Assembly: GCA_918026815.1 (NCBI GenBank)
Contig: CAKJVC010000061.1
Span: 806,001 to 870,000, forward strand
Reading direction: 5' to 3'
Length of the DNA stretch: 64,000 nucleotides
Source of the DNA: Chalara sp. BL73
Taxonomy: Eukaryota > Ascomycota > Leotiomycetes > Helotiales
Both the position numbers and the translations under genes were made by a program. Below, piece after piece: positions 33,411-61,798 of the stretch; the stretch's first letter is position 1; the number at the start of each line of letters is the position of its first letter. The notes under the pieces were generated by a model. That model was not told the origin of the DNA. It made no database searches and saw nothing but the letters and a program-made list of their open reading frames with translations.

Positions 33411-34088
33411 ACATTGGCACTGCAGGGAAAGACGCTGGTTAAGACGGAGATGCGCCTCTCCAGTTCGGCTTCAGTTCGGAACATTTAATGATTTGACTGT
33501 TCGTCAAGCATTTCTCATTGCACTAGTACTATTATGGCTGATGACCTGCATTAGCTTCCTTCGCAGGCTCTGAGGTGTAGACATATAGGTTACTGCTTGA
33601 AGGATCAGGGGACATTTGGTAGACATCGGCGAAGCCCTTGCCGACTAGGTTATTTGGGTCACGTGACAAAAGATCTGGTGGATTCTGGCTCCATAGTAAT
33701 TTGTGTCGTCTACTTTGCTGCTTCTCCGACTCTTTCTGCCCCCTCTAGATACTTAGAACGAAGATATATCGTCATCGGCGACATGTCAGGGCTCGATCAC
33801 GCATGAATCCAACAGCCTAGACAGACAGAGCCTCTTGCGGTGACTTCCTAGCGGTTGGCTGAGTTTGTGCGCTCGCAGCGATGTGAGCGTCGGTGTTAGG
33901 GAACAAGATCATGCAAAAAGGGTTGTTTTAGTTGTATTGCAATTGAATTGTAAGCTGAAGAGAGAAAGAATGACGTGTTAAATACAGGGATGTGGTCCCG
34001 TGACAGTCAGCCTGAGCCCACCATCCTCTCCTAATTCAACATTCGATTTCGAACCATCCACCTTCAATACTTCGAACCTGGTCAAATA
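33411..34088. other. Upstream region of the HET/NB-ARC gene
   Basis: No coding region is supported. The last 150 bp are the probable 5' untranslated and promoter region of the receptor gene starting at 34089. Confidence 0.45.
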
Positions 34089-37000
34089 ATGCGACTTCTA
34101 GAGCGAAAAGATGATGGTGACTTCAGCCTAACTACGCTTTTCGGCAATAATATTCCTCTAGAGTATGCTATACTTTCGCATACATGGGAAGCCGATGAGG
34201 TCACCTTTCAAGATCTGATAGGTGGTAACGGCAAGGAAAGAGCTGGCTACGAGAAGATACGATTCTGCGGAGAACAGGCAAGGCGTGACGGCTTACAGTA
34301 CTTCTGGGTGGACACTTGTTGCATTGACAAGTCGAACAACACCGAGCTTGCAGAAGCCATTAACTCTATGTTTCGTTGGTACCGTGATGCGACTAAATGC
34401 TACGTCTACTTATCAGATGTGTCGGTGCCTCGCTTTCACGCGGACGAGCGATCTGACCAGTTGTATGGGGAAGCAGCATTTCGAAAAAGCAGATGGTTTG
34501 CTCGAGGCTGGACCCTTCAAGAGCTTATTGCCCCGGCGCAAGTTGAGTTCTTCTCGAAAGAAAAAGAGCTATTGGGCAATAAATTATTACTGGAACGACA
34601 TATCTGCGAGATAACAGGGATTCCAGCTAAGGCGCTTCGAGGAAGCCCTTTGTTTGATTTTGGCGTTACAGAGCGAATGCAATGGGCAGAAACCCGTGAA
34701 ACTACCGTTGAAGAAGACAAAGCATATTCGCTGCTAGGCATTTTCGACGTTAATATGCCGCTTATCTATGGCGAAGGGAAGGGAAAGGCATTGAAACGGC
34801 TTCGAGAGGAGATCGACAAAGCTACAAAAGGTGGGTCCCTCTCTTCCGTTACTAGCAAGTTTCGAGCATAATGGTGCATTTCGGCATTAGAAATACTAAT
34901 GAGAGTATGGATCAAGCGTAACGACTTCTCGGTTGCGTTTAGTCTCTCCAACATTTCTGATATTGAACACTTCGTAGCAAGAGAGCAAGAGCTAGCAGAA
35001 ATACACAGAGTATTGAGCAGCGACGGCTCTCGCCGTATTGCTGTTCTCCACGGCCTAGGCGGAATTGGCAAGACCCAACTTACTATCGCATATACAAAGC
35101 GGCAAAAAGACAACTACTCGGCAATATTCTGGCTAAACATCAAGGATAAGGATTCTTTAAAGCAAAGCTTTGCCAAAGCAGCAAAGCAAATATTACGAGA
35201 ACATTCTTCGGCTAGCCTGTTAAAAAGCGTGAATGCAACAAATCTCGACGAGGTAGTAGATGCTGTTAAAGCATGGCTGAGTCTGCCTTGCAATACGAGA
35301 TGGTTAATAATATACGACAATTATGACAACCCACAATTACCGGGAAATACAGATTCCGCAGCAGTAAATATCTGTCAATATTTCCCCGAGTCATATCAAG
35401 GTTCAATTATAATCACAAGTAGGTCGTCACAAGTTAGAATCGGTCATCCTATCCATATCAGAAAGCTAGGAAATGTAGATGATAGTCTCCAGATTTTGTC
35501 AAACACATCAGGGCGTAAAGGGCTGATAAATGGTGAGTTTGGTCTAAATTTAATATTATGACCCTAACTTCAATGCTAGATCCCGATGCTATAAAGCTTG
35601 CCAAAGAGTTAGATGGACTTCCTCTTGCACTTGCTACCGCTGGGGCATATCTCTTTCAAACCTCAATAACTTTCTCAGATTATTTACATTTATACAAAGA
35701 ATCGTGGGCGAAACTTCAACAGACAAGTCCTGAACTGAGCTCGTATGAAGACCGAACTCTTTACTCTACATGGCAGGTTTCGTTTAACCACGTCGAACAA
35801 CAAAGCCATCTTTCTGCTAAGCTCCTTCGGTTGTGGGCATACTTTGATAACCAGGATCTTTGGTTCGAGCTTCTTCAGCACAGCGATGCCGAGGACCCAG
35901 ACTGGATAAAAGAGCTTGTTGAAGATAAGTTAAGCTTTCACGGCGCGATGCGGATTCTGAGCAACCACGGGCTGGTGGAGGTAGACATGGCTTCACAGGA
36001 GTGCACTGAGTCAAGAGGGTACAGCATTCATGGATGCGTTCACTCGTGGACAATTCACGTTTTAAATCAAGAGTGGGATCATGACCTAGCTAGAGTAGCT
36101 GTGAAGTTTGTTGGGTCACATGTCCCAGACGAGCATGCTGTTCAGCCGTGGTTAACACAACGACGGCTGCTCCAACATGCAGTCAGATGTTCCAATATAT
36201 TAAGCTCTTTGGCCACAAATGATGGTTCGGCATTGGCTTATCAACAGCTGGGCCTTCTCTACGCAGGTCAGGGCAAGCCAGTCGAGGCAGAGCAGATGTA
36301 TCAGCGAGCGCTGCAAGGTTACGAGAAGGTATGGGGTCCTGAGCACACCTTAGCGCTCGATACAGTTAATAACCTAGGGATCCTTTGCGTTGATCAAGGC
36401 AGGCTGGCCGAGGCGGAAGAATTACACCAGCGGGCCCTGCAAGGCTACGAAAAAGCATGCGGTCCAGAGCACACATCGACGCTCGATACGGTTAATAAGC
36501 TAGGGATCCTTTACGTTGACCAGGGCAAGCTGGCCGAGGCGGAGCAATTATATCAACGAGCACTGCAAGGCTACGAAAAGGCATGCGGTCCAGAGCACAC
36601 ATCGACGCTCGGTACGCTCAACAACCTTGGGATCCTTTACGCTGACCAGGGTAGGCCGGTCGAGGCGGAGCAGATGTATCAGCGGGCACTGCAAGGTTAC
36701 GAGAAGGTATGGGGTCCTGAGCACACATCGACGCTCGATATGGTTAATAACATTGGGCTCCTTTACAAAAAACAAGGCATGCTGGCCGAGGCAGAACAAT
36801 TATATCAGCGGGCACTGCAAGGCTACGAAAAGGCATGCGGTCCAGAGCACACATCGACGCTCGATACGCTCAACAATTTTGGGATCCTTTACGCTCACCA
36901 GGGCAGGCCGGTCGAGGCGGAGCAGATGTACCAGCGGGCACTGCAGGGGAAAGAAAAGGCGTGCGGTCCTGAGCACACGTCAACGCTTAACACGGTCAAC

Positions 37001-37612
37001 AACCTTGGGCTCTTCTACGCCGGCCAGGGCAGGCTGGTTGAGGCAGAGCAGATGCTCCAGCGGGCACTACAAGGCTTCGAGAAGGTGCGGGGTCCTGAGC
37101 ACACGTCGACGCTTAACACGGTCAACAAACTGGGCCTTGTCTTCAAGAAACGGTGCTATGCGGCCACCAAGCTCTCAGCCCGTAAAACTGTGCTTGTGAA
37201 TAGCAAGCAGCTGTCCAGTCTTTGCACCAAATATTCGCGCTCGAGACTGACACTTTTTGACTATATTGGGCGAATATTTGCCTGGGTAGGAGACGAAGAA
37301 AAGTCTATAGCTGCCTTTGCATATCGGCTGGCTCTGAATTCATCCGAACCTATTGCTATTTGTGATGGGTGCGATATCAAGTTAGGTGTCAACATGGATC
37401 GATTCGTTTGCACAGTATGTGAAGACGAGCATCTATGCAGAAGGTGTTATGTGAAATTGAAGAGTAATAAGCTTGGGGAGAGTACTTCTTTTTGTCATGA
37501 CCACAAATTCCTTAAAATTTATGGCACTACTGTGGCGAGATCCTCAGTAACTAATACTGCGAATACTAGCGTACTAATCGATCAGTGGCTAAACGAAATA
37601 GTAGATCTATAG
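34089..37612 (+). CDS. HET / NB-ARC / TPR / ZZ-finger NLR-type receptor
   Basis: Three exons (34089-34830, 34891-35532, 35580-37612) give 1,138 residues; an alternative acceptor before 34906 would shorten exon 2 by five codons. The second intron has a CCTAAC branch site. Residues 1-200 are a HET domain with all three hallmark blocks (YAILSHTWEADEVTF, WVDTCCIDKSN, WFARGWTLQELIAP), the death-inducing module of fungal heterokaryon incompatibility. An NB-ARC NTPase follows, with P-loop GLGGIGKTQL near 302-310, Walker B in RWLIIYDNYDN and the GLPLALATAGAYL motif. Seven full 42-residue kinesin-light-chain-type TPR repeats and a partial eighth occupy about 679-986. The C-terminus (about 1056-1109) is a ZZ-type zinc finger, CDGC...CTVC...CRRC with CHDH. 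This is a complete plant-NLR-like layout: effector, switch, ligand-sensing repeats. The extra ZZ finger could bind a partner. No frame damage is seen. The ligand is unknown. Confidence 0.9.
36230..37150 (+). repeat. Tandem 126-bp TPR-coding repeats
   Basis: Seven consecutive in-frame units of exactly 126 bp start at 36230, 36356, 36482, 36608, 36734, 36860 and 36986, with a partial eighth from 37112. Most units share the block QRALQGYEK...GPEHTSTL. Two unit types alternate: EQLYQ...KACGPEH (units 3, 5) and EQMYQ...KVWGPEH or its variant (units 4, 6). High identity points to recent duplication and exchange between units. Confidence 0.85.
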
Positions 37613-40101: not shown

Positions 40102-41472
40102 TTACTGGTTCTGAACGAAAACTACCAATACGGCCGAGAAGCTATGTACATGTCAGCAGTTATTAGTAAATTCATATTCTTGGTGGTTTAGTGACACTCA
40201 CGCAGCAGTAGCAGTAAATATCTCTACTCTCGTAGTATCAGGAGGGGTGAGGATCATCAAACCAATTGAGAATAGTGCAGTGAAGCCACCAATGTAAAGA
40301 AGGGTGTGTAAAGTTGAGTGGGCGGTAGTTAGGATGCCAATGGCCAATGTTGGTAAGATGCAGGCGAAAACTGTTGCTACTCGAGAAGTGAATCTCACTA
40401 TCGCTGCTCCCGAGTATTCGCGCAAGTCCTTCTGAAGTTAACAAAAGTTTCGCGTTATGTATTTGAGGTGATATATATAGAGACCTACAGGGTGCTCATT
40501 CTTTTCTTTCTCTTGAGGACTTTGGCTAAGCTTCTCTGGGTCATCAGGGTTGGTTGGGGGTGGAGGATCGTCCCACGCATGATAGACGGGGATCCACTCT
40601 TTGTGTACCCAGCGAGTGAATCCATCCATATTTCGATGAGGAAGCGTTGAGACGAGATCTAAGCCGCTTTTTGGAACCCTTTCTGGCCAGAAGATACTGC
40701 GAAGCATCTGCACAACCTGTGGCAAGAAGCGCTTCCGAGGTTTCACTGGGTCTTCAAGTTTTCCCCAAGCATCACTGCCTAACCCTGCGATGCAGAAGTT
40801 TCCAAGATCCGCTCTTCTGATCCATTTTCGTAGTTCTTCAACGTTGCTACTGTCAGGGTCTGGCAAGGCTGACATCTGTACGTGTTGAAGCACGGCGGCA
40901 TCTATAAGTTGGGGGATATAGTCAGTTCTCTTTGAATCTTCACCATACACTATAAATAACTTACTGTACTGTTTCAACAAGCGTCGGACTTCAAGAGCCT
41001 TTTCCCACTGCTGTTTATCTTTTTGCATCGTACACATTTTAGGCGAAGCTACCATATTAACCGCAAGTTTTGCAAAATCTGATGAATCATGTCCTCTTCT
41101 GTCCCTATCTCTTTTTTCGAGTTTAGTAAGCTCTTCCTGTAACATACTGAGCTCAACTTGGTAGTACAGAAGGTTTTTCACATTCAACTCTCGAAAACGA
41201 GCATATGATTCGAATGAAGGTGTATCGGTCATTAGCTTCGCGATGCGCGGCCATCCGGAAGCTTCCTCTTGATTGTTTAGAGGGGGTGGTGATTCCTGTT
41301 GTTGTTGTTGATGTTGATGATGGTACTGATAAGGATGATTCTGGAGCAAAGGCGAATTTGTCACCGATGTTTGCGTGCTCCCATGAGAAGCGGAAAGAGG
41401 ACTTGACGAGGATGAGTTCGTAAGTGTTGTTGACATGTTGTCTGTCTCTGTGATCACAGAAGGTGGAGCCAT
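40102..41472 (-). CDS. DUF6594-family membrane protein
   Basis: Three exons on the minus strand (41472-40489, 40431-40202, 40141-40102) join to 417 residues in consistent phase. The N-terminus is low-complexity, rich in Ser, Gln, His and Pro. The family core begins with GWPRIAKLMTDTPSFESYAR and NLLYYQVELSMLQEELTKLE, a predicted coiled coil. The end holds the membrane part: VFACILPTLAIGILTTAH, LLYIGGFTALFSIGLMIL, and the last exon completes FSAVLVVFVQ. This pattern matches fungal proteins with a DUF6594 domain, of unknown function and common in accessory regions near HET genes. No damage is visible. Confidence 0.85.
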
Positions 41473-44195
41473 GACGACGGCTCAGCTTCGAAGTTCAACT
41501 GTATGAGTTCGCGTATATGTTAAGACGATGTGCTCTTCTTGGAAAAGTCTTCGAGTTCTCCTCTGCCTTATCAATCAATAATTCTTTTCTCCTCACAGAG
41601 GGGCAAGATTATCTGTGGGGGAAAACTATTGGAGGCATGCTATCACGCTGACGCTGTGTGATGTGAGCTTTGACATTCGAAAGTGGGAGTGAGAACTCAT
41701 GGCATACTAAGATATTCTACAGAGGCTCCAATGGAGCGGCGGACAAGTTCAAAGGTAGAGGCTGCACAAGTGACGCACAACACGCTGGCAGTGCAGGAGA
41801 GACAAGCATTGTAATGAAATCAAATGGGGATGGGCGCATCAACATAACCGCCTAACTCCAATTCGCCCTCGAGTGCAGAGTTCTACCAACCATCATTTTT
41901 GGACGGGAAAGTATCTCAGCATTGTTCCCTAAAGCTTCGGCCGGGATATGAAATATATTCTCTCTCTGAACTTGTTTTTACCTGATATAGGCCGCTGATA
42001 CACATAGCACGGTGCATGGAGTATTGGATTTCACAATCTTTAGAACCGTGTTATTAGTGATCTGAAATCTTTTTAAGCTTTTATACCTGGTGTACATATC
42101 TATGCCAAGTATGAAACATGAACTTCTATAATTTATACAAATTATTTCAGAATCGACGTTGGCAAATAGAGATATAGGAACTGTTACGAGTACCATATTG
42201 CTAAGATGCATTAGCTTTGAGCAACAGTTGCGCACTCGCCTCCAAACGCCTATTCAATTTTCGGTGGATAGTGGCCCGAGGCTTTGGGGTAGCGTGTGTG
42301 TCACTGTACTACTTTGCATACATTAGCCAAACGGACTAAAGGGCATGCCTGGGAATCTTCAACGGCGTGTGGAGTAGGAGGAGAAACATTTTACTTGTTG
42401 TTCACGGCTATGGTGCATGCCGATTATACTAATACTTCCTGATTTAAATAAATTGAATAGACATGCAAAGTTATATGGCGATGCTGGGCTCGCTTATGGC
42501 CAATACGAAGACAAGCGAGAATCTATCGGGCTTGGTGTTCTTCTCATGATCACGATGCTGTGCGACACCAACTTATGAAACAAGTCAGGCCTTATTCTTC
42601 ACGCGATTCCACTTCCATCGGAAGAGAATGTTCTTGAAGTAATCCTTGGTAGACTGTATCATTCAAAGTTCTTATGCTTATAATCCAAAGCCTTAGTTGG
42701 CCTCAGTCGTGAAAAAAAAAACCCCAACAGTGACTTTTTATTTCCAAGACTCATATATATTACCCTATGATACGAGACTTTAAGGTGGAGGGATTGGCGT
42801 TGGGGGAAACAATGACCCCAGAAGCGCATTAAATTGGCACCCTGCTGATCTTCAAGCCTCAAAGCTGACATGCAGTAGGCTTACTCATTCGACGCCCAGC
42901 TTTGCTTATAGCTGAGCCCCTCTTCCCTATTCGGATTCAATGTGCTCCGGATAATTCCTAAAGGTGATACATGCTGTCGCGGCGCATGCCATTATCTCCG
43001 CGTGTCATTGGGTGCCTTGCAGATTTCTATCACGCCATATCATCAAGCTTATCATCGAATCACATTTCAATAAAGATATAGCTGAAAAAGCTGCGTTATG
43101 CAGATTGGGGGCTAAAATGCATTAGGGTCGATGCTGTCTGCTATGTCTGGCTATATCTGTTCAACTATAGCGTGTGCGAGGCTCAAAAGTATGCAGCCTC
43201 AAGTTTTTACAGCCGCAAACTTATTAGAATATGCTTGCCTATTATGTAGGCAAGAGAATCATATTTTATCAAGCTGTCATAGTATACTTTGTAGCTTTTT
43301 CGGATTTCTCTTTATGAAATCTGTTCATCTCTTCTTCACCGTGCGATTTCGAGACCTTGATAAAAAGAAAGCATGCACGAAGTTTTGCATAGTGACTCTG
43401 TTGTGTGTACTGCACAGCAAAAGCCTCAAATCCATGTCAAAGTAGCCCCGAATGGTGGACAAAACAGTTTAATAAACGAGGAGATCCCTAATCAGCTGGG
43501 GTAACCCTTGACTTGAAAAAACCGAGTAAATGTCAAGGTAGCCTGGTTTGCAACTTCCCTCGATAGGATATCGAATATTCGAAACTAATATCGAAACACA
43601 TCGATTGAAATGCTGGTCGTATGAACCTACAAGATTCAACTTCAGAAATCGACACCGTGGTTGAGAATTCAGCAGGCGCAAGGCAGAGCCTGCGACTCAG
43701 TGTGCCATAGTCAGAAATCTTCTCGATCTCGTTGTCTTTTGGTTGGTCATGTTTCAATAACAGACGTTTTTATGGCCAAACTTTAAGACTAAAGGTTACA
43801 TTTATCCCGTGTCTACGAGTCTGTCTATAGTGGCTGCCATTGTGCGACAGCAAAGAGAGGCACAATTGGCTTCTCTAATCTGGTGGCGGCTGATGGAGCA
43901 GCTCGTTTTCGAAGGATGACTTCCGAAATAGTTACGAGTAGCGAGGCCGTCCCTTCACAACCGGGGCTCAAAATTTGAGAACTAGCTGAAGAGCCTCTCC
44001 TGAACCGGTCCGCGGAGGACGGGAGAGCATTTTGATGCCTTGTATATAAGATAATGATTCATCTACAAATTTCGAGCATATCCTGTCAAAGTTGGGAAAT
44101 AATGGTTTGATGCCCACTCTACCGCTGCAACAAACTCCAATAACACCATATCCTTACCCTAGGCCTCCAAAACAAAACGCACCGTGAAAGCTACT
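41473..44195. other. No gene seen
   Basis: A 2.7-kb AT-rich gap. Short frames (41670, 43131 plus; 41978, 42659, 43469-43757 minus) have no recognisable features. The last 150 bp are likely the promoter and leader of the small gene at 44196. Confidence 0.45.
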
Positions 44196-46987: not shown

Positions 46988-47757
46988 TTACGGAGGCGGC
47001 AGTGCTGAGCCAACAAAGACCACCAAAACGGCAGCATAGGCAGCGACTGCTCCAACTGCCACTTCAGGTGACGCGGTGCGAGCTGCAATTGCAATTACGA
47101 TCGCGAAAAGGACCACTGCAACCGATGTTGTTGCAAGCGCAGTGGTTTGGTCCCGATGCAAGACCATCAGCAGCATAGGCCCGACCAGGGCAATTCCCGC
47201 AAAACCTGACATCCAAAATCGTCTAAATCGTGCTTCTAATGACTGCTCCTTACGCATTTCCTCCTTGGCTTCATTTTCCTTGTCGATGGCATCTTGTTTC
47301 TTTGCATTTTCTTCCTCGAGCGCCTGTCGCTTCTCCGCGTTCACATGTCTTCGCTGCCACCCAGGCAATGTCCATTCGTTTGATTGGGGTTGATAGTCAT
47401 CTTCCGGCCCATTTTCTATCACTCCCTTGCCATAAATTAATGTGTAGCCTAGCGACTTCGCCGAACTGGCAACAAATAAGTCTCTTGAAATATCACCATT
47501 CGTCTTCTCGGCATGTTCGACCATGAACTCCCAATCCCGGACTGCAGCGGCTGGAGCTTCATCTCAGCTGACCTGTCTAAATGGTTCTGCAAGAACTATT
47601 TCTACTCACTGTATTTAACCATTAAAGGACCAAGGTCTGCAAAGATCTCGCTGGTTATTTGGTGGTCATTTTCACGGATCCGACGAACAATTTCAATGAG
47701 TTCTTCTTGAGTTTCCAAAGAATTGTTCGATGAAGGCCTGCGAAATTCACATGCCAT
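46988..47757 (-). CDS. Two-to-three-span membrane protein with coiled coil, DUF6594-like C-terminus
   Basis: Two exons on the minus strand (47757-47610, 47562-46988) give 240 residues. The start MACEFRRPSSNN precedes a helical region (ETQEELIEIVRRIRENDHQI). The middle has the conserved-looking block YGKGVIENGPEDDYQP and a charged coiled coil. Three hydrophobic segments end the protein: FAGIALVGPMLLMVL, VAVVLFAIVIAIAA and AVAAYAAVLVVFVG. The last block strongly resembles the end of the protein at 40102-41472 (FSAVLVVFVQ), so the two are probably distant relatives sharing a membrane module. Function is unknown. The intron is short (47 bp); its acceptor CTGAG was chosen by phase. Confidence 0.75.
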
Positions 47758-48335: not shown

Positions 48336-48884
48336 CTTGATTAAGGTTAACATTTTGTGGCCATACGCGTGAATCATACGATCCATACAGTTGGGTGCAA
48401 AAAGTTTGCACCCATGTCACCGCCAAGACCTTTTCCCCAGGTATTGTAAATGCGCAGCTTGAGTTACAACTTTCTGTAGCTACGTACAATATGTCACGCT
48501 AAGGTGATATGGTTGCAAACTTTTTGCACCCTCACTGTACGCTTGCTTGTAAATATGCTTGGGACGGCATAGATACACTAGTATGGATTATCCTTAGAAC
48601 AGGGTGGCTCGTAATTTAGTTGCGATTCCTTTTCAACAGTGCACAGCTTATTAAAAACTTTTATGTGGGATCGAGATCGAGAAACAGTGAGCAATGGTGG
48701 AATCCGAGGTTTGTTGTAGTGCCGTGCCGTGTTGACGGCGCATTTGGTGGCTGATGGTAGCTTCAGATGGTATTAGAGAAGCACTTCTTATTTCTACAAA
48801 ATAATCGGAGGTCAGTTTCACAATACAAGTCGAATCCAGCATCTTCACTTGTTCCTCTAAGGTTCCATGAAACTGATGTGACGG
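48336..48884. other. Upstream region of the HET gene
   Basis: No gene seen. An inverted pair, TGGGTGCAAAAAGTTTGCACCCA near 48390-48415 and GCAAACTTTTTGCACCC near 48514-48530, repeats one motif in both orientations and may be the ends of a short element. Confidence 0.45.
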
Positions 48885-50561
48885 ATGATCGGCATGTCGT
48901 CACAGCTATTGAAGCCAACATTTCCACCCGCTCCAGTTTACCAGCAATGCCCAATCAATTATGAGACTCGAACAGTGCGGCTGATTGAGCTGCTGCCAGG
49001 AGTCATGCCAGAGCCTCTTTCATGCCGCTTATTTACACAGTCTCTAGGCTCTAACCCTCGATATACAGCATTGTCATATGTCTGGGGGGATTCCACTTTT
49101 CTCCAGCCTATTGCTGTGAATGGAAGACTCCTTGGAGTTACCTGCGGCCTGCATGCCGCACTGGTATACCTCCGTGATTCGAAGGTTTCTAGGACTCTAT
49201 GGGTAGACGCCATCTGCATCGACCAAAGCGATATTCAAGAGAGGAACCATCAGGTCGCTCAGATGAAAAGCATCTACCGGGCTGCAGACAAAGTTGTAGC
49301 CTGGCTGGGGGAGGAAGCAGATGGCAGTGACCAGGCTATGGCGTACTTATCTAGCATGTGCTGGATCGACGCCAACCCGCGGGACAAATCTGACAATATC
49401 ATGAAAGCCCTCGAGAAACTGTGGGCACGCCCATATTGGACACGTGTGTGGGTTGTCCAAGAACTGGCTGTAGCTCGCCGAGTATCATTTCACTGCGGTC
49501 TGAAGTCAGTGTCTGTCACGGCAGTTCGAGAATTCCTGTCCTGGAAGCGTCTATCTGCTTTTGCACCGCCAGAGTCATCTGCCTGGATCCCACGAAAAAT
49601 GCTGCTTCTCACTACCAGCGTCGATAGTGACGTTCTGCTGATCCTACGGGACTCATGGCACCTTCAGGCGACTCAGAGCCTGGATAAGGTCTATGGACTT
49701 CTAGGCCTTTTCCCGGAACAATTTCGTCAGCATCTGGAACTGGACTACAAGAAATCTTTCCCGGATTTGATGTATGATGTAGTGAGGTCTTATCTGCATA
49801 CCTATCGCAATTTCAACATTCTATGTGGCTTTTCGCAGCTGCGCTGGGATAATAGGTGGAATGGTAGTCCGTCATGGATCCCAAATATCACACGTCCATT
49901 AGTTGGGATGGCCGAGGAATACAACACATCGGGGGACCGCCGTGACTCAAAAGCAATCATCGCTGGCACGATTCTTAAGTCCCGGGGTTCCGTCATTAGC
50001 AAGGTAGCTCTTGTACAGGGCCCATTCGAGTTCATGGCTTCCGGCAAGTCATATGAACATTTTATGGCATTCAGAGCCTCATTGGAAGAGATGAAAAGAA
50101 CTTCTCTGCGACATCTCGGGCGGCAATATCCGGCACTGTCACAAGCTGAGAAGGAATTACAATTCTTCACGATGCTTGCCGGCGATCGAATGCATAGCCA
50201 GTCATCCAAGATTTGTCCATTTTCTTGCCAGCAATTATGGGACGGTATTACTTCCATAGACGGTGAATTGCAGTTAGCACAGTTTTCGGATGTCGTAGAG
50301 TATTTTGAGTTCCTATTTTTGCGGTTAAGAAATCGCTGCTTTTTTTATACCGTTGAGGGACATATCGGACTTGGACCTGCGTATATGCGTCACGGCGACG
50401 TTGCATGTGTTTTGTATGGTTGCAGATTGCCAATTGTGCTTAGGAAGAGGCTAGTTGGGAATGCTGCCCGCGTTTACCAGTTTATTGGGCCGTCATATGT
50501 TGTTGGAGCTATGAGTGGCGAGTATGCTGGTAAGGAAGAAATGCTGTTTAATATCGAATAA
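48885..50561 (+). CDS. HET-domain protein
   Basis: A single exon of 558 codons. The HET domain has the expected blocks: RYTALSYVWGD, then LWVDAICIDQSDIQERNHQV, and YWTRVWVVQELAVARRV. The start is taken at the ATG at 48885; a second ATG lies nine bases later. The C-terminal half has the usual features of stand-alone HET proteins, including GHIGLGPAYMRHGDVACVLYG and the terminal YVVGAMSGEY. HET proteins trigger cell death upon recognition of non-self in fungal heterokaryons. No repeat or NTPase domain is attached, so partner genes would be needed for recognition. The frame is clean. Confidence 0.92.
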   Translation: MIGMSSQLLKPTFPPAPVYQQCPINYETRTVRLIELLPGVMPEPLSCRLFTQSLGSNPRYTALSYVWGDSTFLQPIAVNGRLLGVTCGLHAALVYLRDSKVSRTLWVDAICIDQSDIQERNHQVAQMKSIYRAADKVVAWLGEEADGSDQAMAYLSSMCWIDANPRDKSDNIMKALEKLWARPYWTRVWVVQELAVARRVSFHCGLKSVSVTAVREFLSWKRLSAFAPPESSAWIPRKMLLLTTSVDSDVLLILRDSWHLQATQSLDKVYGLLGLFPEQFRQHLELDYKKSFPDLMYDVVRSYLHTYRNFNILCGFSQLRWDNRWNGSPSWIPNITRPLVGMAEEYNTSGDRRDSKAIIAGTILKSRGSVISKVALVQGPFEFMASGKSYEHFMAFRASLEEMKRTSLRHLGRQYPALSQAEKELQFFTMLAGDRMHSQSSKICPFSCQQLWDGITSIDGELQLAQFSDVVEYFEFLFLRLRNRCFFYTVEGHIGLGPAYMRHGDVACVLYGCRLPIVLRKRLVGNAARVYQFIGPSYVVGAMSGEYAGKEEMLFNIE

Positions 50562-53245: not shown

Positions 53246-56200
53246 ATGGCAGAACATTCAATATTTGACACTGAGATCACGGTCCTCTATGAGCCCGAGG
53301 ATGCTGATGCGATTGTTGAGTAAGCATATATTTTCTATAGTTATCCTCTGGACAGGCTAGTATACTATCAATTCCATTGATCCGTTTGGCTTCGACATTC
53401 CCCCGCCTATCCCATGCCACCACTAGCCACATGATCTAGATCAGCTTTTTACTCGTATACACTGGTCTCATATTATACTATATGTTGAATCGAATAGCTT
53501 ACATAGACCTTAGTATTGTCTTTGTCCACGGTCTGCAGGGCCATCCATACAAGACCTGGGCTTGCAAGAAGGATGAAAAGGCTCCTGAGCTAAGCCCAAG
53601 ACTTCCCAATGCTCAGCCTAACAAGCAGCGCTCCAAGAAAATCCTTCGACGCCTCATACCAAGGCATCTAAAGGAGTCCGTAGGCACATCGCAAAGTGGA
53701 GCCACTTTAGAGAATGTTTCTCTCGGTAAAGACCAACGACCAGTAGAAAAGGATAACGTGTTTCATGCATCATATAGTTTCTGGCCTGTAGACCTACTTC
53801 CAACCGATTGTCCTAGAGCTCGAATCTTGACCTGGGGGTATGACACCAAGATCACTAAGTATATGACTGCTTCTGTGAACCAGAATGGTATTTTTTCGCA
53901 CAGCAAAGATCTCCTATTTGCCTTGCAGCGAAACAGGGATCTCAATCGTCCACTTGTATTTGTTGCACACTCATTAGGAGGTATTATAGTTAAGGATGTG
54001 AGTTGAGTACATGAAAGGAAATATTGCAAGAGTTCTAAATCTTGTCGATACAGATGCTGGCGCGCTCATACATGTCTGCAGAAAAGGACCTCCTGAATAT
54101 CGTTGAGTCAATCACTGCAGTTGTATTCCTGGGAACGCCGCATCGCGGTAGCAAGGACTTGGCAAGCGTAGGAGAAATGGCTCGTAAGGTAGCTAGCGCT
54201 GTTCTGATGGACACAAACTCTGCCATGCTAGATGCTCTTGGTTTGAAGAACTCTGAGCTGGAGCGCTGCCAGGACTCATTCTCTAGGCTGTGGTTATCAC
54301 ACAAATTTCAAGTGAAAACCTTTCAGGAAGGCTTTCCTGTGACTGGAGTCAAAATCGGCCTGCTAAACGAAAAGGTGCGGATGCTACCAAATAGTTGAGA
54401 CTAGTGATGCTAATTCTCATTTTTGAAGATCGTTCCGGACTTCTCTTCTCTGCTTGGTGACTCACGGGAACGAGCTGAAACTCTTGACGCAAACCACATG
54501 GACATGTGCCGCTTTAGTAACGCCAGCGACCCGAACTACCGCAAAGTTTCAGGAGAACTAAAGATTATTTATCGTTCACTTGAAGGAAACAATCAACAGA
54601 CTATATCAGTTAATTGGAGGAGTGACAAATATAGTATTTCATGCGCTATCTCAATGACTTACTGAGCGATGCTAAACAACCTTATAGGATCTGAAAGTGG
54701 CAAAAGAGAGTCCACATCTATCGAAAAAGGTAATAAATATTTCCACTGTTTTGATTTTTGCTAGGCTAATGTCCACTTTTGACATAAGCTTGCCTCCAGT
54801 CTCTTTTCTTTCAAGGAATAGAAACCCGGCAACAAACCATCGATATGCCTTTGGAAGAGACATGCTTGTGGTTACTACAATCCCCAACATACAGAGCATG
54901 GCGTGCTCGTGAAAACCTGGAAAATCACCACGGCCTTCTATGGATCAAGGGAAAACCGGGATCAGGAAAATCAACCCTAATGAAAGAGGCCTTTCGGTGC
55001 GTTGAACAGCAAAAGTCAGAGGAAAACTTCTTCACGGCATGCTTCTTCTTCAATGCGTATAGAGGGGAGCTAGAACGAAGTCCTCTTGGTCTCTTTCGAT
55101 CTTTGCTGTACCAGCTATTGCCTCAATCCCGGGATGCCTTTCGTAAATTCTTGGCCCTTTATCGGCGTATGGACAAGGATCAAAGTAAATGTGTTATATG
55201 GCACGTCGGAGCGCTAAAGTCCTTTTTTCAGTCAATTTTCACGCAGCCTGGAGTGCGACGAACCATAATTTTCATTGACGCACTCGATGAATGTACGGGA
55301 GAAGGCATGAGAGACCTCGCCTACTTTTTCCGTAACCTAACGACATCTGCTCATAAAGATGGATTGGAACTCGATATTTGCCTATCAAGCAGACAGTACC
55401 CGACCATCACGATCCGCCTCTGCCCTGAAATCATCGTGGAAGACTTCAACGGACCAGATATGATACGCTATGTAGAACAGAGATTCGCTGCTGGTGACAT
55501 CAGCAGTGACAGTCAATGGGCTCCTTTGGTCCACGAAATTCTCGAGAGATCTTCTGGGGTATTTCTCTGGCTTGTACTCGTGGTGAACATTCTACTCAAA
55601 GATCGAGATAAGGGCAAAAACATTAAGCACCTAGAAAATCGCATCCGCCAAGTACCACAGGCGCTTGAAGAATTATTCGCACAAATCCTAGAAGGGACAA
55701 ACTCACAAGAATCGCACACAACGACCCTGTTCTTCCAATGGGCTCTCCTTGCCAGAAGGACCCTGAGGCTTCGTGAGTGGCGTCACGTTCTCGCATTTAT
55801 TAAAGGTAGAGCTCCTAGTTCATTAAGTGAGTGGCGAGGATCTGAAGACTATACCGAGAATGACCAACAGCTCGAGTGGCAGATTCGAAGCATATCAAGG
55901 GGCCTGGTCGAGGTAAAGACTCAACAAGACCAAGGCCTGTCAGTTCACGCCCACGATGAATGGGATTCTATTTGGGCAGGTGCTGGATCTCAAGATGCGG
56001 ATCATGGTGAGAACAGAGTTGTACAGTTCATACACGAGTCCGTTCGTGAATTTTTCCTTCACCATAATGGCTTCTCATTTCTGGATCCAAATATTGGACC
56101 CCATTTTATAGGGGAAGGGCATCTGTCCATCCTGAACACCTGCCTTGATTACATTAGTATTGATGAACTCGATGCATTAGTTCAAGCAAGAATGAATGCA

Positions 56201-59123
56201 GGGTCCAAAGGATCGGCTTCCCCCCCACTCTCATCTTACTTCATGGAATCGCGACCCCAAGCGGAAAAGCATCGTGGAGTACACAAAAGACCTTTGAGTG
56301 TAACAAGTTTTGGTACTTCAGCATCGGATTACGTTCCATCCGTTCATTCAAACCATTCTGTGGGATCGGCACTGCGAGCAGCAGCAATTACAGTAACAAC
56401 ACCCGGAATCTCTACGAAAACCCATGACGGTATTGAGGAGGACACCTTATTTGCATTACGAGAGTTTCTGAATGATCCGGTTATTGCAGCTCCCCCGGAA
56501 GCCCTGGAAGATGCGGTTGCCTTCGCTAGTGTCGCTCAGTCTGTGGCTGGTCAATCACAGGTCCTTGAGGATTTTCCGGCACTTCTGTCATATGCTTCCA
56601 ACATGATCTTTGTCCACGCCTCCCTTGCCGAAAAAGAGAGGGCTGACCCAATAAAGATTATCGAACGACTTCTTAATAGAGGCATTTGGAAGCGCTTACT
56701 CTCCCTCCAAGAGCACATCTCCATAGAGACAACCCTACTATATTTCGCCGCTGAACGCAATCTGAAGACGTGGATTCAATGTCTCTTGGATTTAGGGGAA
56801 GATTGCAACATTCAAGGCGGCGAATACGGGACTCCCCTCATTGCGGCAGCAAACGGGTGCAACAGGGAAGCCATGATCCTCCTTTTAGATCGTGGAGGCG
56901 ATGTAAGTTCTCGTAACCGAAAGAGAAGGACGCCACTTCACCACATAGCTGCGACATCAGATACAGGTTTGCTGCGCGTCTTCTGGGGTTACATAAAATC
57001 TAAGGCGGCCACGCCTTCTTTGCCCTCGTTCGCAGCAAGTGTCATAAATGCTACCGACATATTCGGACAAACCCCCCTCCATCTTGCTGTCTGGCAATCT
57101 GATAAAGATATGGTAGAAGAACTGCTAGATTGCGGCGCGAATGTCAATTCCAGAGACGAATTCGGGGATACTCCTCTACACTTCGCATGCGAACGTAGCC
57201 AGCCGAACCTGGATATTTGCAGAGTTCTTCTCAATGCTGGAGTAAATTCTTTCGCTGAAAACCGTCAGCTCAAAATGCCGATCCAGGTAGCTACGGAAAG
57301 TGGATTTAAGGAAGCAGTCACTTTAATCACCGCTTACCAAAAAGCAGAACTCCCTTCAACTCCCATTCTAGCACCGAAGGGACTCTTGAACGTCAAGATC
57401 GTGGAAGCAAGAGGCTTGCGAAAATGTAGAGAGCCTTATATCGTCGCAGTCTTTCAAAAGAACGAGTTGGTTTCGAAGGTGGGATATGAGGATGGTACAG
57501 GAGAGAGTGGGAGAGAAAGCCCAATTGCTGGCATCCCAATTGGAAGATCTGGAAGTGATAGCGGGAAGTCACCATTTGCGATGACCTTGCGAAGTCGACA
57601 GAGCAGTAATGGCAGTGTGGCCAGCCTGGGTGATTATCGAACCGTCAAGTTGGGGGCTGTGAACAAGTTAATGACTTGCCCTAAATGGGACATAGAGGCA
57701 GTTTTGTGAGTCTTGAGTCAGGAGTTGGCTTCAGCCTTGGGCTAACAATCTATGCAGTGATGTTGTTGGGTCTGACTCGTTGTTGGATATCTCGATTTAC
57801 GATCGTGGTACAACCAACCAAGAATTTATCGGTCGTGTCAAATTAGAACCAGTACTCTTGGAGGTCGGTGACACTCCCGTTCGTGGATGGTACCCATTAA
57901 AAGGATACAGTAACGACGAGAATGCGCTAGGCGAGATCTACGTAGAAACGGCCTTTCAAGGAACAGAAGAGAAGCAATATGGGCCCAATGATTTCCAGAT
58001 TTTAAAGTTGATTGGAAAAGGAGCCTCCGGGCAGGTCTACCAGGTACGAAAGAAAGGCACTAAGCGAATATATGCCATGAAAGTACTTCCGAAGAAGGTT
58101 ATTGTTCAGAAGGAGGTTGCTCACACGGTCGGAGAGCGAAACATTCTTGTCAGAATAGCGATATCGGATTCACCGTTCATTGTTGGACTCAAGTTCTCAT
58201 TCCAAACACCAACAGATCTGTACCTCATAGCTGACTACATGTCTGGAGGAGAGCTTTTTTGGCACCTTCAGAAAGAAGGTAGATTTAACGAGATGCGAGC
58301 AAAGTTTTATATCGCAGAAATTATTCTGGCCCTGCAACACCTGCACAGCCACGATATAATTTACCGAGATTTGAAGCCAGAAAATATTCTCCTAGATGCT
58401 AACGGACATATCGCTTTCTGTGATTTTGGTTTATCGAAAGTTACCTTGATTAAAAACGCAACAACTAATACTTTTTGTGGCGATATCGAGTATTTGGCAC
58501 CAGAGATCTTGTTAGATGAACAAAAGTACACTAAAGTAGCTGACTTTTGGTCGCTGGGAGTTTTAGTATTCGAGATGTGCTGCGGCTGGAGCCCATTTTA
58601 TTCCGAAGATACTCAACAAATGCATAAGAACATCGCTTTTGGCAAAGTTCGATTTCCACGGGACGCACTTAGTACCGAAGGACGAAATTTTGTTAAAGGT
58701 CTACTAAACCGAAATCCGGAACATCGGCTAGGTGTTGCTCGTGACGTGGAGGAACTCAAAGACCATCCATTTTTTAATGACATTGATTGGGCTGCTCTAA
58801 CTAGAAGGCAAATCCCGCCTCCATTCAAACCAAAGCTCACGTCAGAAACCGATGCATTTAACTTTGATCTAGAGTTCACGGATGCTCTTGGTGGCTCCTC
58901 GTCACTTAACGCAAGGGCTGCAGCGCTAGCATCTACACCTCTCTCTCCTACCATGCAAGCAAATTTTAAGGGCTTCACATTTGTAGATGAGAGTTCGATT
59001 GAAGAGCACATGAGAGATAGAATTAAGGAGCAATACGAAGATATGGATGAAGGCATGCACAACAATGATAACTGGGAGGATCCGTCTGATGTAAAGGAAA
59101 GGAGCTGGCGATCGGATGAGTAG
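53246..59123 (+). CDS. Esterase-NACHT-ankyrin receptor fused to a C2 domain and Sch9-like AGC kinase
   Basis: Seven exons (53246-53319, 53514-53997, 54054-54374, 54429-54621, 54688-54729, 54789-57705, 57758-59123) give 1,798 residues in full phase; exons 4-5 are the least certain. Residues 1-340 form a SesB-like serine esterase (VHGLQGHPYKTW; AHSLGG with Ser 178; FLGTPHRGS; His 316 in DANHMDM). A NACHT NTPase follows, with P-loop GKPGSGKST (426-434) and Walker B TIIFIDALDE near 531-540. Ankyrin repeats span about 1016-1223 (TPLHLAVWQSDKDMVEELL). At about 1236 the same exon runs into a C2 domain (LNVKIVEARGL), completed in exon 7 (FDVVGSDSLLDISIYDRG), then an AGC kinase at 1423-1690: GKGASG loop, Lys 1452, YRDLKPEN with Asp 1548, CDFG with Asp 1566, T-loop Thr 1582 in TFCG, turn motif STPLSP and hydrophobic motif FKGFTF. 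C2 plus kinase closely resemble fungal Sch9/SchA, the TOR-linked nutrient kinase. Position 1586 is Asp where AGC kinases have Thr. Confidence 0.9.
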
Positions 59124-59423
59124 CGTGGCATAGGCCAATACGAATGAGGAGAGCCCTATGTTTAACGGCAGGCACTTCGATCCATGATTATTCACGACGT
59201 CATAGCAAATGTTCTTTCCAGCTTTACAATTTCCCTGACATTACTTTTGATTCCTCTTTCTATATTGAAATAATGGACCCTTTTCGTGATTTCTCAAAGA
59301 GCTTCAGCTTGTTATTGACCATAAAGAGCAGCTCCTGATCTGCTGTCGAAGGCGGTGCGGATGGATACGCGCTTGCTGAGAAACACTCGCGGGTCGCTTC
59401 TCATTTACGAGACAATCATCAGG
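59124..59423. other. 3' flank of the NLR-kinase gene
   Basis: No gene seen; short gap up to the HET relic. Confidence 0.45.
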
Positions 59424-60815: not shown

Positions 60816-61798
60816 ATGAATCCTCCGGTACGTACAACGTAACTCTCTAGGGGAACCGGGACTAAAAACGGTAGATACAGGATGAAGTTGCCACAGAGGT
60901 TGCTCGACGCCAAGAGCAAATCCTTGCACGACTACGCAACGACCTAAAGAACAATCGACTCGCGATTATCACTGGTGCGGGAGTTACACTTAATGCGACC
61001 GCAGATATATCTGGAAATCCTCTTTCTCACATCACATGGACGGGCTTGATGCGAAACGGTCTGGACTATCTAGTTAGTGAAGGCTACGTGGACACATTTA
61101 ATCGACGGACAAAGAGAGCATATAATGCACTTAAGGATCCAGAAGTTGACGGACTACTTGACGCTGCAAATATCGTAAGCAGTCAAATGAAGCAACATGG
61201 ACAATTCTCTACATGGTTGGAGTCGGTGTTTGGAAGTTTAAGTCAGGAAATCAGACATCCTGCTCTTATCGACGTACTTAAAACGTTGCACGAAAAAGGA
61301 GCAACTCTGCTTACAACAAATTACGACGATATCTTCGAGAAACACTGTGGGTTAAAACGCGTTGGTCGATCGAACCAGGACGATGTTTTAATGTTTCAGC
61401 GTGGAGATCTTAAAGGAGCCTTCCATATACATGGGAGCTATTTTGACGCACACGAAGTCGTCCTAGACACAACAGACTACTACGAAGTAAAACGCTCAGG
61501 CGTAGTACAGCATATGCTCAAAAACTTCTTACAGTATAAAACCATTCTGTTTATTGGTTGCGGCTCAGGGCTAGAAGATCCAAATTTCGACGCTCTCTTG
61601 AGATGGGCTAGCGAGCGACACAAGAATCTCCTACATCGGCACTGTTTACTTATTCGCGATGATGATAGCGTGAACTACCAGCCGTTACTACGGGTGAAGT
61701 ACGGACCGAGATACGAGGATCTTGTTTGCTATCTTAAGAGGTTATTGGATGACCACACTGAGGCACCAAGCCTCGTGTGCCCGCCTTTGAGTAGATAG
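60816..61798 (+). CDS. SIR2-like domain protein (SIR2_2 family), putative NADase
   Basis: Exon 1 (60816-60827, coding MNPP) joins through a 53-bp GTACGT...ACAG intron in phase 0 to exon 2, giving 309 residues if read to the TAG at 61796. The NAD-binding fold begins LAIITGAGVTLNATAD. TTNYDD carries the conserved Asn (about 151), FHIHGS the catalytic-type His (about 188), and TILFIGCGSGLEDPNFDALL the second nucleotide-binding block. These are the hallmarks of SIR2-like proteins that cleave NAD+ in bacterial anti-phage systems and occur in fungal NLR-type genes; that this one is an NADase is inference. No repeat or NTPase domain is attached. The stop may be bypassed: a GTAGAT donor at 61791 could splice to HMG-box exons downstream, making a 383-residue fusion. 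Confidence 0.82.

Follow-up and report, generated by a model that had tools for sequence, protein, structure and literature searches.

Fungal NOD-like receptors (NLRs) that carry a protein kinase at the C-terminus have been described before. The main-text parts of PMC12258605 present nine T-NACHT NLRs of Sordariales whose C-terminal PKinase domain derives from CHK2/PRD-4 and is treated as a putative integrated decoy (the paper counts 12 PKinase NLRs, three of which are not described in its section on them). Passages of PMC4986451 list PKinase and C2 among the N-terminal effector classes of fungal NLRs, and describe SesB-like/DUF676-NACHT-ankyrin NLRs that end in their C-terminal repeats. Here we analyse a 64,000-nucleotide stretch of the Chalara sp. 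BL73 genome (contig CAKJVC010000061.1, positions 806,001 to 870,000; hereafter the window) in which one gene encodes, in this order by Pfam, a DUF676-type esterase, a NACHT domain, ankyrin repeats, a C2 domain, an AGC kinase and an AGC tail. The C2-kinase part is related to a stand-alone kinase of the same genome that we name SchA by its C2-AGC layout. We lean slightly towards reading this gene as an NLR immune receptor of the STAND class with an integrated, kinase-dead Sch9 decoy.

Like the Sordariales CHK2/PRD-4 receptors, as the parts of PMC12258605 present them, the gene encodes all three parts of a NACHT NLR and bears, at its C-terminal end, a duplicate of a single-copy host kinase. It differs from them in its donor, which is SchA/Sch9 (an AGC kinase with C2 and tail) rather than CHK2, in the parental intron and 3' flank that show capture at the DNA level, and in an Asp in the P+1 loop that predicts a dead kinase; neither DNA-level capture nor a dead P+1 loop was seen in the main-text parts of that paper. 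The N-terminal esterase, NACHT and ankyrin repeats match the receptors in the passages of PMC4986451, whereas the present gene continues beyond the repeats into a C2-AGC kinase. Plant NLRs with integrated domains also include duplicated host kinases as added domains (parts of PMC9528084), but these are NB-ARC/LRR receptors, and the likeness is one of analogy only. The kind is therefore already known, and what is new is the donor kinase, the C2 domain, the probably dead P+1 loop and a tract that was probably re-copied. An earlier reading of the letters alone (the sequence-only reading) had known of no described example, which the CHK2/PRD-4 receptors show to be too strong; the narrower statement holds, as no Sch9 or C2-AGC kinase in an NLR was found among open-licence PMC papers by title and start of abstract. 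Passages of PMC9815663, PMC5485727 and PMC12881547 likewise contained no C-terminal kinase in a fungal NLR.

A receptor gene that continues into a C2-AGC kinase

The coding sequence of 5397 nucleotides was rebuilt from seven exons (Table 1); its sole stop codon is the terminal one, it encodes 1798 amino acids (aa), and all six introns are GT-AG with lengths of 52–194 bp. At the level of sequence, the fusion of an esterase-NLR with a C2-AGC kinase is real, and the five domains that the sequence-only reading had assigned to one gene lie in one stop-free frame. The receptor part has the layout of a fungal NLR, with an N-terminal effector domain, a central NACHT carrying both Walker A (GKPGSGKST, aa 426) and Walker B (IIFIDALDE, aa 531), and C-terminal repeats. 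NPHP3_N (aa 395-573, 103.8 bits) and NACHT (aa 422-605, 32.7 bits) both score above their Pfam cut-offs. DUF676 (aa 163-219) is barely above its own, at 22.9 and 27.5 bits against 20.3; we take the esterase to be of the SesB type, with the AHSLGG and NHMDMCRF motifs presumably holding its catalytic residues. The strongest ankyrin stretches lie at aa 1131-1219, where Ank_2/Ank models match (Ank_2 91.6 bits in the whole protein and 128.7 bits on a fragment). At C7:2068500-2078000 lies the top-scoring NACHT relative of the fused gene in the genome (34% identity), and behind it comes a very long run of mutually similar ankyrin repeats.

The ankyrin-to-C2 join sits within exon 6 (2917 nucleotides, open throughout), as had been proposed from the letters; the protein alignment to SchA starts at KGLLNVKI and DNA similarity to SchA begins at about 57392. 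The C2 domain (PF00168) reaches 30.6 bits against a cut-off of 22 in a scan restricted to the spliced C2 stretch, and was not detected at E<=0.001 in a Pfam scan of the whole protein. It is completed across a 52-bp in-phase intron, again as first proposed, and the position and phase of this intron match those of the 49-bp C2 intron of stand-alone SchA, so the intron was inherited. The intron interior has diverged to the point that 20 of 41 positions are identical to SchA, no better than shuffled sequence (the top five of 30 shuffles gave 0.51-0.66). The open frame and the inherited in-phase intron are the basis on which we infer one transcript and a single protein across the whole gene. Alternatively, the locus could yield two products: an NLR that stops close to the join or within the intron, and a separate C2-kinase fragment made from a start in exon 6 or 7. 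This would draw on in-frame internal Met codons at aa 1146, 1201, 1303, 1333 and 1451 (aa 1101-1499 inspected) and on the immediate stop that intron retention would bring, as the unspliced frame ends at 57707-57709. However, the closest Met ahead of the C2 start is 34 residues away and belongs to the ankyrin region, and those further on are internal to C2 or the kinase. The parental intron has stayed in phase, and the frame of exon 6 reads through the join; we regard two products as very improbable. An AlphaFold model of exon 7 alone had a mean predicted local distance difference test score of 35.7, which made it useless, and it was not used.

Table 1 Features of the fused gene in the window (positions counted from the first letter of the window)
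Feature	Position	Strand	Basis or remark
Exon 1, Met start	53246..53319	+	gene model
Exon 2, esterase	53514..53997	+	gene model, DUF676
Presumed nucleophile Ser178 in AHSLGG	53971-53973	+	exon 2
Exon 3, remainder of esterase	54054..54374	+	gene model
Exon 4, esterase end	54429..54621	+	gene model
Presumed catalytic His316 in NHMDMCRF	54495-54497	+	exon 4
Exon 5, linker	54688..54729	+	gene model
Exon 6: NACHT, following helical region, linker, ankyrin repeats, C2 start	54789..57705	+	gene model, Pfam
NPHP3_N/NACHT region	54857..55489	+	Pfam, motifs
Ankyrin repeat region, ~aa 1007-1220	56693..57334	+	5' limit is a sub-cut-off Ank_KRIT1 match
Join, first SchA-derived base, aa 1235	57377	+	alignment to SchA
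C2 domain, aa 1235-1420, interrupted by intron	57377..57986	+	SchA alignment, Pfam
52-bp intron in C2, GGGCTAACAATC near 3' end	57706..57757	+	gene model
Exon 7: C2 end, AGC kinase, AGC tail, stop	57758..59123	+	gene model, Pfam
Protein kinase domain, aa 1424-1683	57996..58775	+	Pkinase E 3.2e-65
Glycine-rich loop GKGASGQV (SchA GKGTFGQV; F1434S)	58014..58037	+	SchA alignment
Synonymous-divergence change point, aa 1506	58242	+	probably older copy 5', younger re-copied tract 3'
P+1-loop Asp1586, GAT (SchA Thr, ACT)	58482..58484	+	SchA alignment
Turn-motif-like STPLSP, same as SchA	58932..58949	+	SchA alignment
Hydrophobic motif FKGFTF, same as SchA	58965..58982	+	SchA alignment
Former SchA 3' end and 3' flank	59124..59247	+	99/124 aligned bases identical

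Origin of the C2-kinase part

The host genome (58.66 Mb in 199 contigs) does contain the normal SchA that the sequence-only reading had proposed to look for, as a C2-AGC kinase of 906 aa that stands alone on another contig (C3). Over the exon-7 part the fused copy and SchA are 80% identical, against 57% for the initial part of C2, and a FastTree phylogeny pairs the two with a support of 0.999 among 11 kinases, all from the host genome and several of them not AGC, with a longer branch for the fused copy (0.123 versus 0.058). Among the best 60 of 2679 PDB matches, the kinase part is closest to chains of AKT, SGK1 and S6K (best 1.6e-88). A C2 domain directly before the AGC kinase, a Pkinase_C tail (aa 1704-1752) and a hydrophobic motif place the fused part in the Sch9/SchA class. 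As in SchA and in yeast Sch9 (in the parts of PMC10455444 that describe it), C2, kinase and AGC tail follow one another with turn and hydrophobic motifs, and the C2 intron is that of SchA. The fused copy departs from SchA in that residues 1-314 are gone, the last residues after the hydrophobic motif are lost through a small frameshift, the P+1 Thr is Asp, and the whole is joined to an NLR. Partial capture of the SchA N-terminus was ruled out, the best match having an E-value of 0.44; because its own N-terminal region is missing, the fused copy is SchA-derived rather than an orthologue of SchA.

Similarity to SchA extends about 124 bases past the fused stop, across the site of SchA's own stop. 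DNA similarity that runs from C2 into the 3' flank, together with the kept intron, indicates that copying took place at the DNA level. A retro-copy is ruled out by the retained intron, and an assembly mis-join with the SchA locus by the protein difference of ~20% and the saturated synonymous sites in the 5' part. These comparisons support the view, held in the sequence-only reading, that the fused C2-kinase is a captured duplicate. With stand-alone SchA still present, the original role remains filled. A single scan of viral contigs returned no relative of the fused kinase.

State and selection of the fused kinase

The fused kinase keeps the catalytic Lys, the YRD, DFG and APE motifs and the TNTFCG context of the activation loop, motif names that we give partly as we presume them to be. 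The Thr or Ser expected in the P+1 loop of an active Ser/Thr kinase is Asp1586 here, a substitution that had gone unnoticed in the sequence-only reading; since GAT and ACT differ by two nucleotides, no single read error explains it. We compared this site in 42 kinases of the host genome (40 loci, mostly from the upper part of 135 matches, plus SchA and the fused kinase), of which 39 could be read by pattern (all but L019, L044 and L056; L030 and L032 gave an identical readout). The residue was Thr in 28, Ser in nine, Cys in one and Asp in one, the fused gene, which leaves Thr or Ser in 37 of the 38 other readable kinases and one Cys. According to the parts of PMC12141571 that treat this site, all human AGC kinases carry Thr or Ser there, function was lost in all but one of the 46 kinases for which mutations at this position are reported, and an active Erk1 mutant no longer had transforming power when given Asp or Glu. 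In yeast Sch9 the counterpart would be T574, the last residue of TFCGT (570-574; parts of PMC10455444). Among the columns conserved in SchA and at least three of four outgroup kinases (a small set), the fused copy deviates at three (F1434S, T1586D, V1605A) and SchA at none. The fused kinase is thus probably catalytically dead, via Asp in place of the P+1 threonine.

These observations bear on the possibility that the kinase is an active C-terminal effector, such that the activated receptor would deliver a Sch9-like kinase, with a growth or stress output, in addition to the esterase. The retained Lys, YRD, DFG and APE motifs, the AGC tail and purifying selection would all fit such a role, but Asp at the P+1 site and Ser for Phe in the glycine-rich loop do not, the P+1 literature predicts lost function, and fungal NLR effector domains are described as N-terminal in the passages of PMC4986451. 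Asp1586 makes an active kinase output less likely, and we consider it improbable. The sequence-only reading had left effector and bait side by side; we favour bait, because of the P+1 Asp and because the N-terminal esterase is already a candidate effector.

Divergence from SchA is not uniform along the kinase, which had also been overlooked. Among codons with unchanged residues, 97 of 170 (57%) differ synonymously before aa 1506 versus 51 of 234 (22%) from there on, a break equalled in none of 1000 permutations. The low-divergence tract spans 58242-59247 and takes in the C-lobe, the tail and the 3' flank. This drop suggests that the 3' part was probably re-copied between SchA and the fused gene, in either direction: most plainly, the capture would be old, and the C-lobe, tail and 3' flank would have been copied again more recently. 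A more specific version, which we put forward tentatively and hold to be rather unlikely, is that a kinase-dead Sch9 bait was refreshed by gene conversion from SchA after C2 and the N-lobe had diverged, with the P+1 Asp keeping it inert.

Over the kinase core, the pairwise ratio of nonsynonymous to synonymous substitution rates (dN/dS) between fused copy and SchA is 0.093 (bootstrap 0.058-0.141). Because the change point makes a single value for the whole core misleading, the 3' tract is reported apart, at 0.147 (0.087-0.219); synonymous sites in the 5' tract are saturated and no ratio is stated for it. When neutral drift was simulated on 440 SchA codons at three different rates, every one of the 500 runs per rate acquired at least one stop. 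Purifying selection on the fused kinase is evident from these sequence comparisons. They weigh on a further alternative, a tolerated chance fusion whose kinase part is a slowly decaying passenger. The 3'-end frameshift and the substitutions at conserved kinase sites would fit slow decay, but there is no internal stop, and a dN/dS of 0.09-0.15 lies well below the ~0.5 that we expect for one neutral copy by reasoning rather than computation; such decay appears highly unlikely.

Decoy reading and genomic setting

In the integrated-decoy reading, the 3' two-thirds of SchA, comprising C2, kinase, tail and 3' flank, would have been copied as DNA and fused in frame behind an esterase-NACHT-ankyrin NLR. 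The copy would have lost the SchA N-terminus, the vacuole-targeting part in yeast Sch9 (as described in parts of PMC10455444), and probably catalysis. The kinase fold, the PDK1-type context of the activation-loop Thr and the turn and hydrophobic motifs, the faces visible to an outside protein, would have been kept. A factor of foreign or non-self origin that binds to Sch9 or modifies it would then also strike the fused copy, and this strike could free the NACHT from a clamp of ankyrin, C2 and kinase; the freed NACHT would oligomerise and the N-terminal esterase would act as a death effector. The esterase would thus be the likely effector, the NACHT the switch, and ankyrin, C2 and kinase the sensor. 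The extra domain is a duplicate of a host protein that is still in the genome, as in integrated decoys, and an inert yet well-kept copy of a growth kinase at the sensor end fits what is expected of one. HET and HET/NB-ARC/TPR genes among the neighbours in the window also favour the decoy.

Several points weigh against it. The fused kinase retains its Lys, YRD and DFG motifs and may still have activity. At positions where fused copy and SchA differ, the four outgroups share the SchA residue in no more than a modest excess of cases (12:4, 10:7, 4:2 and 7:6). The C2 part evolves fast (proportion of nonsynonymous differences 0.29), less expected of a faithful decoy, and dN/dS is pairwise, with the share of the fused branch deduced and complicated by the likely gene-conversion tract. 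As reported in parts of PMC12141571, a p38 Gly mutant at the P+1 site remains active, Cys or Asn occupies the site in some active kinases, and Erk2 is active with Ser or Cys, Asp not being among these. The fusion is known from one genome, from sequence alone, and no pathogen factor that targets fungal Sch9 was found among the papers listed, by title and start of abstract.

The main rival is that the fused Sch9 part works as a tripwire for the cell's own TOR state. TORC1-type (target of rapamycin complex 1) and PDK1-type kinases would phosphorylate the retained sites, and loss of phosphorylation, through an invader that poisons TORC1 or through incompatibility, would free the NLR; the guarded object would be the upstream kinase and the fused copy its substrate. 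STPLSP, FKGFTF and the TNTFCG context are all retained, and such a role works without catalysis. Regulation of yeast Sch9 also fits, as parts of PMC10455444 describe Thr737 in the hydrophobic motif as activating and phosphorylation of Ser726 by Pho85 as priming for TORC1. However, the same parts have yeast Sch9 reach vacuolar TORC1 via its N-terminus, which is absent from the fused copy, and the C-terminal end past the hydrophobic motif is trimmed by the frameshift. We consider this rival unlikely. Should the integrated-decoy reading be true, a fungal NLR would guard the TORC1-Sch9 nutrient axis, which implies that this axis comes under attack from factors of mycoviruses, bacteria or mycoparasites, or from non-self alleles. 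Sch9 would be a second kinase recruited to the C-terminus of a fungal NLR, and a dead P+1 loop in a conserved fold would offer a sequence hallmark of, and a direct route to test, fungal integrated decoys.

The genome holds a very large NLR repertoire, with at least 152 NPHP3_N matches, and at least 135 kinase matches; both lists are lower bounds (for kinases and NPHP3_N, 122 of 343 and 150 of 308 candidates were scored). On comparing the two lists by eye, we rejected the notion that kinases commonly neighbour NACHT domains in this genome: among the matches listed, the window locus alone has a same-strand kinase within 5 kb downstream of NPHP3_N, NB-ARC genes not having been searched. On the minus strand of another contig (C67:235500-245400), an NLR is neighboured by weak kinase frames and, after them, a long TPR array, with the kinase ~4.8 kb upstream of the NACHT frame. 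The window itself is rich in incompatibility-type genes. A HET-domain gene (48882-50558, +; 109 bits) lies ~2.7 kb upstream of the fusion, and successive HET, NB-ARC and TPR-array frames at 34035-37609 (+) probably form a HET/NB-ARC/TPR NLR. Shortly downstream of the fusion, an open reading frame with a SIR2_2 match (60875-61795, +; 61.8 bits), with an ITGAG stretch near its start, is possibly another immunity-type gene. Two DUF6594 frames are also present in the window, at 40441-41481 (-) and 46991-47563 (-).

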